This document shows positions 5,386 to 61,001 of a stretch of DNA of 64,000 nt, piece by piece. Every line of letters begins with the position of its first letter. The first letter of the stretch is position 1. The DNA comes from an uncultured Selenomonadaceae bacterium (GTDB taxonomy: Bacteria; Bacillota; Negativicutes; Selenomonadales; Selenomonadaceae), in the NCBI GenBank assembly GCA_905234195.1, contig CAJOFR010000012.1, positions 1-64,000 of the forward strand, given 5' to 3'. The translations under genes and the position numbers were made by a program. The notes beneath the pieces are model-generated. The model ran no database searches. It worked only from the letters and a program-made list of their open reading frames with translations, and was not told the origin of the DNA.

Positions 5386-5482
5386 CTACTTTTCTTTTGA
5401 TCGCAAAAGAAAAGTAGCAAAAGAAAACTGCCCGCAGAGGTCGCATCACGCGACCAAATGCGGGCGATCCCTGTGCGGCCCC
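5386..5482. repeat. Three-hairpin element copy 1 (third hairpin degraded)
   Basis: CTACTTTTCTTTT-gatcgc-AAAAGAAAAGTAG; GCCCGC aga GGTCGC ATCAC GCGACC aaat GCGGGC. Confidence 0.9.
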
Positions 5483-29076: not shown

Positions 29077-29213
29077 TAATGTTAGTGATAAGGGGCAAGG
29101 GGATAGGGATTAGCGATAAGGGGCAAGGGGTAAGGGGCAAGAAAATTTTTTCCGCCAAACCCTTATCCCTTTCCACTTATCCCTTTCCACTAACCACTAT
29201 CCACTAATCTCTA
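29077..29213. repeat. Long heptad inverted repeat, right arm reaching the fumarase stop codon
   Basis: TTAGTGA TAAGGGG CAAGGGG ATAGGGA TTAGCGA TAAGGGG CAAGGGG TAAGGGG ... CCCTTATCCCTTTCCACTTATCCC. Confidence 0.9.
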
Positions 29214-38759: not shown

Positions 38760-39179
38760 ATGAGTGAAATTAAAAATCCGAGCGTCTTTGACGTCGGCAA
38801 CCCTCTTCCCGAACAGTTCAGCAAATTTTTTATCGGGCAGGCGTATTTGAATCCGCTGACGAAACAGGGCGGACCTATCGCGAACGTAACTTTTTCGCCC
38901 GGCTGTCGCAACAACTGGCACATTCACCACAAGGGCGGGCAGATTTTGCTCGTCACAGGCGGCAGGGGCTGGTATCAAGAGTGGGGCAAAGCTCCGCAGG
39001 CTCTTAAGCCCGGCGACGTCGTGAACATTGCGCCTGAAGTCAAACACTGGCACGGCGCGGCGGCTGACAGCTGGTTTTCTCATCTTGCCGTCGAAATTCC
39101 CGCTGAAAATTCTTCTAACGAGTGGCTTGAGCCCGTCGACGACTCACAATATCAGAGATTAGGGACAAGTGGTAAGTGA
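38760..39179 (+). CDS. Cupin domain protein
   Basis: FSPGCRNNWHIHHKGGQILLVTGGRGWYQ ... KPGDVVNIAPEVKHWHGAA. Confidence 0.93.
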   Translation: MSEIKNPSVFDVGNPLPEQFSKFFIGQAYLNPLTKQGGPIANVTFSPGCRNNWHIHHKGGQILLVTGGRGWYQEWGKAPQALKPGDVVNIAPEVKHWHGAAADSWFSHLAVEIPAENSSNEWLEPVDDSQYQRLGTSGK

Positions 39180-39258
39180 CAAAGGGCAAGTGGTAAGGGG
39201 CAAGCGGTAAGTTTTAAGAGAAAAGAAGATCTTATCCCTTAATCCTTATCCCTTAAAA
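39154..39258. repeat. Heptad inverted repeat overlapping the cupin C-terminal codons
   Basis: AGAGATT AGGGACA AGTGGTA AGTGACA AAGGGCA AGTGGTA AGGGGCA AGCGGTA ... CTTATCCCTTAATCCTTATCCCTT. Confidence 0.9.
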
Positions 39259-42111: not shown

Positions 42112-42213
42112 GGCCGCACAAGGATGTGCGGCCGCCCGCATTTGGTCGCGTGATGCGACCTCTGCGGGCAGTTTTCTTTTGCTACTTTTCTTTTGCGATC
42201 AAAAGAAAAGTAG
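42112..42213. repeat. Three-hairpin element copy 2 (complete, inverted relative to copies 1 and 3)
   Basis: GGCCGCACA-agga-TGTGCGGCC; GCCCGC attt GGTCGC GTGAT GCGACC tct GCGGGC; CTACTTTTCTTTT-gcgatc-AAAAGAAAAGTAG. Confidence 0.95.
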
Positions 42214-46930: not shown

Positions 46931-47070
46931 TTAGTTAGGGATAAGTGACAAGGGATAAGTGGCAAGGGATAAGCGGCAAAGGATAAGGGATAAATTTCCT
47001 CTTAGTCCTTCCCTCTTAACCCTTTCCCCTTGACCCTTTCCTCTTAATCCTAACCACTAGTTCCTCTTCC
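46931..47070. repeat. Long heptad inverted repeat between tuf and rpsJ
   Basis: AGGGATA AGTGACA AGGGATA AGTGGCA AGGGATA AGCGGCA AAGGATA AGGGATA ... complementary pyrimidine-rich arm. Confidence 0.92.
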
Positions 47071-58082: not shown

Positions 58083-58736
58083 ATGCAACTTTTATTGATG
58101 GGACCTCCTGGTGCCGGAAAAGGTACGCAGGCGGCCGAACTTGTTAAAAAATTTTCCATACCGCAAATTTCTACCGGCGATATGTTTCGCGCGGCAGTGA
58201 AAGAGGGTACGGAACTCGGAAAAAAGGCGGAGGCTTGCATGAAATCCGGTACGCTCGTCCCCGACGAAGTGACTATCGGAATTGTGCGCGAAAGACTGGC
58301 GAAGGATGACTGCAAAAACGGTTTTATCTTGGACGGTTTTCCGCGTACGGTGGAGCAGGCGGACGCACTCGCAAAAATTCTTGACGAACTCGGAAAAAAA
58401 CTCACTCGCGTTTTGAATATTCATGTGCCGGCGGAAGATTTAATCGAACGCGCCGTCGGACGCAGGATCTGCAAGGGATGCGGTGCAACTTATCATGTCA
58501 AGTTCAATCCGCCGAAAAAAAATTCCACTTGCGATAATTGCGGCGGCGAACTCTATCAGCGCGCTGACGATAACGAGCAGACAATGACGACGCGCCTCAG
58601 CACTTACGAAAGTTCAACGCGCCCGCTGATTGATTATTACAAAAAAGTTGGAGTTTACACCGAAATTGACGGCAGACAACCTATCGCGAAAGTCACTGAA
58701 GATCTCGTGAAAGTTTTGTCGTCGGTGAAAGATTGA
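58083..58736 (+). CDS. adk: Adenylate kinase (with zinc-binding LID)
   Basis: [40 protein letters not shown]. Confidence 0.98.
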
Positions 58737-58965: not shown

Positions 58966-58995
58966 AAAATTTTTGTGACGTTTGGAGGGAAGAGC

Positions 58996-59796
58996 ATGCA
59001 GTTGTTTATCGGCAAGAAAGTTGGAGTCAGCGAAGAGGAAAAAAATCTCTCCTACTACAAATTTTTTGAGCGCGCGCTTGCAAAAATTCCCGAAGAGAAA
59101 ATTAATTTGCTCGACGCGCCGTCAAAAATTCCTGCGGTTCCTTTTGAGCAACGCAATTTATTTTTGACAGGCGAAGATAAAAATTTTTGTCAAATTGGTT
59201 ACGGAGTGGCGGCTGACGGCACGGGCTTTGTCTGCAATGAAACTTATATGCCGAACGTCACCGGCGAGATGCTTGATTGGTGGTTCCCGTGGCACAGCGT
59301 CGGTTCAGATCTGCGCTACAAAATTTGGGACAACGAGGATCATTATTTCGCGCGCGCGGATAACGCCGCTTATGTCTGCGATAAAAATATTCCGGTGAAT
59401 CGGAAGACGTGGGGCGTCAATCACTACATTCTTGAGGATATTGGCAACGGTCCGAGCTTCATTAAGCTCTGTTTCAAAAGTCCTGCCGCTTTCGGTTTCG
59501 ACGAAAAACTTGTCGGCGCGGAAAAATGTCAGTCGCTGGTTTGCGGGATTGGCGCGGGGGAATGCGCGGCGGCTATGGTGCACAAGTGGTATCCTCACGA
59601 AGGCGGCGTTATGTTCTGTTCGCGGTTTTGGATTGGATTTGCCGAAGTCGACGGAAAAATTATGAAGGCTTTGCCCGCCGGCGTGAAAGTTCCCGTTGAA
59701 GTTCCGCGCGGCTTGTTCGCGCATAACATCAAAGAATTTTCAAACCTTGCGGCGATTTTGCCGGAGGTTTACGCGGAAAATGCGGACAACTTCTAG
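58996..59796 (+). CDS. Phloretin/2,4-diacetylphloroglucinol hydrolase-like (PhlG family) protein
   Basis: NETYMPNVTGEMLDWWFPWHSVGSDLRYKIWDNEDHYFARAD, HNIKEFSNLAAILPEVY; ATG 58996 after GGAGGG. Confidence 0.75.
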   Translation: MQLFIGKKVGVSEEEKNLSYYKFFERALAKIPEEKINLLDAPSKIPAVPFEQRNLFLTGEDKNFCQIGYGVAADGTGFVCNETYMPNVTGEMLDWWFPWHSVGSDLRYKIWDNEDHYFARADNAAYVCDKNIPVNRKTWGVNHYILEDIGNGPSFIKLCFKSPAAFGFDEKLVGAEKCQSLVCGIGAGECAAAMVHKWYPHEGGVMFCSRFWIGFAEVDGKIMKALPAGVKVPVEVPRGLFAHNIKEFSNLAAILPEVYAENADNF

Positions 59797-60034: not shown

Positions 60035-60406
60035 ATGGCACGTATAGCCGGTGTAGATTTGCCACGTGATAAGAGAATCGAATACGCTTTGACGTATATT
60101 TTTGGTATTGGGTTGCCGTCGTCGCAAAAAATTTTGGAGATGACCGGAATTAATCCGGATACCCGCACAAGAGACCTCACGGATGACGAAGTTGTTAAGC
60201 TTCGTGATGCCATCGATCATAATTTTGTGGTTGAAGGTGACCTTCGCCGCGATATTCAGATGGACATTAAGCGACTCATTGATATTGGCTGTTATCGCGG
60301 ACGCCGCCACCGCCTCGGTCTTCCTGTTCGCGGGCAAAACACCAAGAACAATGCAAGAACTCGTAAAGGTCCCAAGAAACTTGTACAGGGCAAGAAGAAA
60401 GATTAA
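60035..60406 (+). CDS. rpsM: 30S ribosomal protein S13
   Basis: [26 protein letters not shown]. Confidence 0.98.
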
Positions 60407-60447: not shown

Positions 60448-60548
60448 TTACTTTTCTTTTTTAGAAAAAGAAAAGTAACAAAAGAAAAATCGCCCGCTGA
60501 GATTGCATCACGCAATCAGCGCGGGCAAGGCCGTCATCCATGACGGCC
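60448..60548. repeat. Three-hairpin element copy 3 (complete), between rpsM and rpsK
   Basis: TTACTTTTCTTTTT-tag-AAAAAGAAAAGTAA; GCCCGC tga GATTGC ATCAC GCAATC agc GCGGGC; GGCCGTCAT-cc-ATGACGGCC. Confidence 0.95.
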
Positions 60549-60608: not shown

Positions 60609-61001
60609 GTGGCAACAAAAAGAACGGTTCGTTCAAAGAAAAAAGTTCGCAAGAATATAGAATCGGGCGTGGCGCATATCAGCTCCACTTTTAATAATAC
60701 GATTGTTACAATCACCGACAAAAGCGGTAATGCGCTTTCATGGGCAAGCGCGGGCGGTCTCGGTTTTCGCGGTTCACGCAAAAGCACCCCGTTCGCCGCT
60801 CAACAGGCAGCAGAGGTCGCGGCAAAGGCGGCTCAGGAACACGGCTTGAAAACGGTTGAAGTTTACGTCAAAGGACCCGGCGCAGGTCGTGAGGCGGCCA
60901 TTCGTTCACTGCAGGCGACAGGGCTTGAAGTCAATATGATTAAGGACGTTACTCCTATTCCGCACAACGGTTGCCGTCCGCCTAAGCGCAGAAGAGTTTA
61001 A
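60609..61001 (+). CDS. rpsK: 30S ribosomal protein S11
   Basis: [49 protein letters not shown] start. Confidence 0.98.

Follow-up and report, generated by a model that had tools for sequence, protein, structure and literature searches.

A dispersed repeat with a putative A/T-rich intrastrand triplex head in the rpsM-rpsK spacer of an uncultured Selenomonadaceae bacterium

The closest described counterparts of the element reported here are the class II potential intrastrand triplex (PIT) motifs, whose studied example is the G/C-rich E. coli motif TMECO (Holder et al. 2015, PMC4666352). According to that paper, PIT motifs are abundant and unstable, in vivo DMS footprinting gave no support for a stable triplex of the G/C-rich E. 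coli motif, and earlier work cited there found neither promoter nor terminator activity. They share with our repeat the succession of pyrimidine stem, loop, purine stem, three-nucleotide loop and further purine stem with a mirrored third strand; both are dispersed, intergenic, found in both orientations and very unequal in copy number among close relatives. The repeat differs in being A/T-rich (CTTTTCTTT, compared with CCCTCNCCC in TMECO), in its presence in Negativicutes and Fusobacteria in addition to Proteobacteria, in that loop 1 of most relatives pairs past the third strand, and in the hairpins with RTC loops that come after the triplex-like module here. An A/T-rich family of such motifs is not singled out in the accessible part of the paper.

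Two further systems bear comparison. The TwoAYGGAY RNA motif (RF01731) resembles the strand opposite the triplex-like module (module A) of the repeat in its adjacent hairpins with ANGGAY loops, and it scores above the gathering threshold beside a module in Pseudoalteromonas. However, it has no match in the species studied here, whose own loops are ANGGAY in hairpin C (opposite strand) and GTGAY in hairpin B, so that two hairpins with AYGGAY loops are not found in its copies; moreover, the motif lies mostly inside a dispersed DNA repeat here rather than standing alone. On one replicon of Pseudoalteromonas sp. NC201 (NZ_CP022523.1) three TwoAYGGAY matches above gathering were seen, one of them adjoining a module on the opposite strand. 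REP and BIME elements are likewise short palindromes that occur between genes in many copies and whose arms change in pairs, but the present repeat adds a third strand to three hairpins that are unlike one another, its foot has no fixed GTAG, and no RAYT was found for it.

The element between rpsM and rpsK and its two sister copies

The window analysed is a stretch of 64,000 nucleotides (contig CAJOFR010000012.1, positions 1 to 64,000) and holds three copies of the repeat. Copy 3 consists of three hairpins (A, B and C) at 60448-60548, in the spacer between rpsM (60035-60406) and rpsK (60609-61001). Its predicted fold has a free energy of −47.7 kcal/mol (z = −9.1), which none of 200 shuffled sequences equalled, and both strands lie well above shuffled stability (z −9.1 and −8.4). 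Read on the plus strand, module A opens with the pyrimidine arm TTACTTTTCTTTTT (60448-60461), followed by the purine arm AAAAAGAAAAGTAA (60465-60478), both assigned from sequence and fold, and by a third strand, CAAAAGAAAAA (60479-60489), a mirror of the purine arm whose register is that of a class II intrastrand triplex; this last assignment draws on the agreement of stem lengths and on the scans with mirrored and non-mirrored patterns described below. Hairpin B, GCCCGC..GATTGC-ATCAC-GCAATC..GCGGGC, occupies 60492-60526 (sequence, fold, stem types) and hairpin C, GGCCGTCA-TCCA-TGACGGCC, occupies 60529-60548 (sequence, fold, covariation). Rfam returned no match at the gathering threshold for this element. 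A gene for a DAPG hydrolase PhiG-domain protein (PF18089, 1.8e-69) at 58975-59796 was also seen inside the ribosomal protein cluster, flanked by an adenylate-kinase-like ORF (58083-58736) on one side and rpsM on the other.

Copy 1 (5386-5479, plus strand, from sequence) has a module A with arms at 5386-5399 and 5404-5417 and a third strand at 5418-5427, and a hairpin B at 5430-5465; the 5' arm of its hairpin C is missing, the region reading GCGGGC-GATCCC-TGTGCGGCC. Copy 2 lies on the minus strand (42112-42213, from sequence and fold), with module A at 42172-42213, hairpin B at 42134-42169 and an intact hairpin C at 42112-42133. The sequence-only reading had proposed that the arms of copy 3 differ from those of the other two by compensatory changes around a constant loop. 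Read directly in the sequence, hairpin A indeed changes from CTAC/GTAG in copies 1 and 2 to TTAC/GTAA, hairpin B changes from GGTCGC-ATCAC-GCGACC to GATTGC-ATCAC-GCAATC with pairing kept, and the B loop ATCAC is identical across the copies. For hairpin C the same proposal is valid against copy 2 only, where GGCCGCACA/TGTGCGGCC becomes GGCCGTCA(T)/(A)TGACGGCC, since in copy 1 the 5' arm is gone. Absent from that reading was the third strand itself, CA4GA5 in copy 3 as opposed to CA4GA4 in copies 1 and 2, which changes together with the stem (five upper T-A pairs as opposed to four).

Covariation of stems, third strand and loops

In a larger alignment, hairpin C showed covariation above that of shuffles. 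The sequences were extracted from this species and its genus by the RTCC loop and position, not by the stem, and all 62 distinct 20-mers were counted. Standard pairs made up 79.4% of cells as compared with 57.7% after shuffling (0 of 500 shuffles as high), the covariation score was 0.553 as compared with 0.226 for shuffled and at most 0.196 for slid partners, and every one of the eight pairs varies on both sides; the rows are paralogues and relatives, and these counts are not independent events. The invariance of TCC in this set is an artefact of the TCC anchor, and loop conservation rests on loop-blind selection: 73 of the 107 distinct perfect hairpins picked in this way 3' of module A in the genus have RTCA or RTCC as their loop, on dozens of different stems. 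Hairpin B seems to follow the same pattern, although its blind extraction in the genus was noisy (54% pairing, shuffled maximum 51%); the species itself supplied seven distinct sequences, a number too small for such a count. The asymmetry of G.T versus A.C pairs in hairpin C was discarded as a guide to the strand, as it sits in the innermost pair (26 G.U of 62).

The sequence 3' of hairpin A, CAAAAGAAAA, mirrors the purine arm in the class II register, a third-strand A standing beside each T-A pair and a G beside each C-G pair. In this species the number of upper pairs and of upper third-strand A residues agrees in 71 of 74 copies, distributed as (4,4) 50, (5,5) 21, (4,5) 3 and (5,4) 0; this agreement represents few evolutionary events, because stem and third strand alike distinguish the two main copy types and the states found inside one genome come from few lineages. 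The mirror rule was obeyed in 59 of 59 informative copies, a biased figure because most of these were collected with a matched third strand in the pattern. It is tested free of this bias by paired scans of viral contigs and by a few incidental copies. In the scans, the stem CT4CT3 was accompanied by the mirrored strand CA4GA3 in 11 matches and by the non-mirrored CA3GA4 in none; the stem CT3CT4 was accompanied by the mirrored CA3GA4 in 8 and by the non-mirrored CA4GA3 in none, this last pattern being slightly stricter by one more T-A pair. With 11 and 8 matches against 0 and 0, the third strand is thus mirrored and not arbitrarily A-rich, as in class II PIT motifs, and the layout is theirs as well: a pyrimidine stem, a loop, the complementary purine stem, a short loop and a second purine stem suited to A.A-T and G.G-C triads. 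The copies of this species, with a triad core of 10 nt, a loop 1 of 3-6 nt and a loop 2 of 3 nt, fall within the ITxF rule (stem 6-15 nt, loops 1-6 nt). In the relatives loop 1 is about 8 nt, above the ITxF limit but inside the 0-10 nt of Hoyne et al. From the covariation we infer that the triplex may physically form.

Outside this species, both in relatives and in other phyla, the hairpin loop can base-pair through its 3' end with the nucleotides directly after the third strand (for example GGTCC/GGACC, AAAGCA/TGCTTT, GTGGCC/GGCCAC and CTTGAA/TTCAAG). Pairing of at least 4 bp at a fixed register was found in 48 of 65 distinct loop-tail pairs outside the species studied here, from a test set that includes 25 distinct sequences, whereas 5000 shuffles gave a mean of 10.7 and a maximum of 19. 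Such pairing would close an H-type pseudoknot. In the species itself the hairpin loop is shortened and the pairing is gone. The stem foot covaries as well (CTA/TAG, TTA/TAA, GTA/TAC, CAA/TTG, ATA/TAT and TGA/TCA).

Copies within the genome and across genomes

In the 2.09-Mb genome, which is 88% complete, the core GAAAAGTARCAAAAGAAAA has 113 matches at no more than one mismatch and the reversed pattern has none; the full hairpin-A pattern has 103. The copies are modular, two main hairpin A tops, four kinds of hairpin B and several kinds of hairpin C being variously combined, and copies that have lost an arm are numerous. By simple ORF calls, orientation in codirectional spacers is even genome-wide (19:19), and of 72 spacer copies 24 lie in convergent and 10 in divergent spacers; the convergent excess is marginal (24 of 72 copies against 4 of 31 window spacers, p = 0.05). 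The C end of a copy is usually some tens of bases off a gene 3' end.

Ribosomal protein S11 places the species nearest, among named relatives, to a rumen Veillonellaceae genome (92%), followed by Selenomonas ruminantium (91% over 122 residues) and Anaerovibrio (89%), which makes a rumen-type member of the Negativicutes its probable identity. At two mismatches the core occurs in 67 of 189 genomes of the order, chiefly those of the same genus; an initial family-level pattern for hairpin A had overlooked relatives, whose loops and feet differ. The exact B1-type pattern had no match in other GTDB species or viral contigs, and that stretch was therefore not found outside the species. With a relative's module as query, blastn retrieved the module from Gamma- and Betaproteobacteria and from Fusobacteria (Pseudoalteromonas, Aeromonas, Pasteurella, Paraburkholderia and Ilyobacter), the Pseudoalteromonas match being 95.7% over 45 nt (E 8e-11); among phages the matches were all short and weak, and E. 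coli had none. In Paraburkholderia caribensis there are 44 module copies, most of them arranged as inverted pairs; the members of a pair lie about 500 bp from each other and enclose a segment that is largely palindromic. In strain MBA4 (NZ_CP012748.1) this segment is about 540 bp long, and its arms vary between copies yet look complementary. A literature search by the motif letters returned nothing relevant.

The element is absent from the rpsM-rpsK spacer of 22 congeners whose spacer could be read. One congener carries a different, independent copy of the repeat there (CT3CT3 stem, CA3GA3 third strand), and several others have unrelated low-complexity tracts similar to arrays in the window that resemble TTAGGGATAAGGGG. 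Because congeners lack the element or carry a different copy or unrelated tracts, the spacer appears to tolerate insertions and copy 3 to be lineage-specific. A role linked to the alpha operon, which the sequence-only reading had raised, is not sustained: besides those 22 congeners, there are more than 110 copies elsewhere, with even orientation in codirectional spacers, and no sense-strand terminator was found at copy 3. The window's low-complexity arrays are intergenic and lie at 29082-29136, 39152-39213 and 46935-46989. In one congener the end of a transposase-like coding sequence adjoins a repeat copy that has seemingly lost its pyrimidine arm there.

Origin of the pattern and the acting molecule

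The reading we favour, with moderate confidence, is that copy 3 belongs to a non-coding DNA repeat, about 100 bp long here, that is dispersed through the genome, and that its presence between rpsM and rpsK is a tolerated lineage-specific insertion and not an operon switch. Its 5' head is an A/T-rich potential intrastrand triplex, in which a pyrimidine arm, a loop, a purine arm and three bases are followed by a mirrored second purine strand; forming G.G-C and A.A-T triads, this strand could sit on the hairpin. The loop of relatives also pairs with bases past the third strand, as in an H-type pseudoknot, a pairing lost in this species. Module A is followed by two GC-rich hairpins whose loops are RTCAC or RTCCN, and the repeat presumably spreads and is homogenised inside each lineage.

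Its arms may be kept complementary by selection for folded DNA, by templated correction of quasi-palindromes at replication forks, or by both. Hairpin-templated correction at replication alters both arms in a single event, and because such correction yields the same pattern, stem covariation leaves selection as the cause unproven; the mirrored strand, the loop and the tail fit such correction less easily. The earlier proposal of selection for structure plus loop recognition therefore stands in what it described, compensatory change keeping the structure and loops being conserved far beyond three copies, and falls short in naming selection as the cause. That the repeat is altogether neutral, template switching at replication perfecting its quasi-palindromes, would suit the frequent arm-deletion copies and the long palindromes whose copies differ at paired positions, among them the Paraburkholderia segment of about 540 bp. 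Template switching matches inverted arms but predicts neither a mirrored third strand nor the return of an RTC loop on dozens of stems, nor the conservation of the module across phyla, and we regard a purely neutral origin as unlikely. A function as a transcription terminator or 3'-end element is improbable to a somewhat greater degree. By eye, the minus strand shows a GC hairpin and then a T-rich tract in 3 of 3 window copies (hairpin B followed by UUUUCUUUUG), copies lie just past stop codons, the C end typically tens of bases away from the 3' end of a gene, and convergent spacers are in marginal excess. Yet orientation in codirectional spacers is even, the essential genes rpsK, rpsD, rpoA and rplQ lie downstream of the alpha-operon copy, the E. 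coli motif had no terminator activity in the earlier work cited in PMC4666352, and a terminator scan, which cannot score interrupted stems such as B, called none in the three window copies.

Still more doubtful is an RNA element, in which the strand opposite module A, with tandem ANGGAY-loop hairpins like those of TwoAYGGAY and of CsrA/RsmA-binding sRNAs, would yield transcripts that bind or sequester CsrA. Besides the Pseudoalteromonas match above gathering that adjoins module A on the opposite strand, there are 23 sub-threshold RF01731 matches in the genus, 19 of which adjoin a module, and copy 2 hairpin C reads CACAAGGATGTG on the strand opposite module A. Since RF01731 and CsrB belong to one Rfam clan (CL00106), CsrA binding counts as a lead and not a result. 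Although csrA was found in 59 of 66 genus genomes, its presence does not discriminate, since it also occurs in two congeners where no repeat copies were found; furthermore, the repeat has no strand preference relative to genes, the hairpin B loop of this species is GTGAY and contains no GGA, and RF01731 has no match in its genome. Mobilisation as a REP element by a RAYT transposase, to which the dispersed intergenic palindromes and the GTAG at the hairpin foot of some copies might point, is very improbable: the foot varies within the genome (GTAG, GTAA, GAAG and GAAA), and no cognate RAYT was found in the 88% complete assembly. The sole Y1_Tnp (PF01797) match there is an IS200/IS605-type TnpA adjoining TnpB, no mobilising enzyme was identified, and no repeat module was found around the TnpA fragment and TnpB.

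A repeat acting at the DNA level is best supported because of the lack of strand preference, the inverted pairs of Paraburkholderia, the mirrored third strand and the recurrence without an identified mobilising gene. We infer from these features that the acting molecule is DNA rather than RNA. The three-strand covariation could reflect an RNA pseudoknot instead of a DNA triplex, and purine triplexes rich in A.A-T should be weaker than the G/C-rich E. coli motif. More tentatively, and with rather less than even confidence, an A/T-rich three-stranded element may have been kept across phyla, so that evolution itself would testify to a bacterial intrastrand triplex or triple-helix pseudoknot, and the TwoAYGGAY RNA may be the reverse strand of its hairpins. 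To the question whether potential intrastrand triplexes form in bacteria, the three-strand and loop-tail covariation brings evidence from evolution, and short oligonucleotides would suffice for a bench test of it. The TwoAYGGAY motif, listed in Rfam with unknown function, is at the same time placed within a dispersed repeat, for Pseudoalteromonas and the genus studied here at the least.
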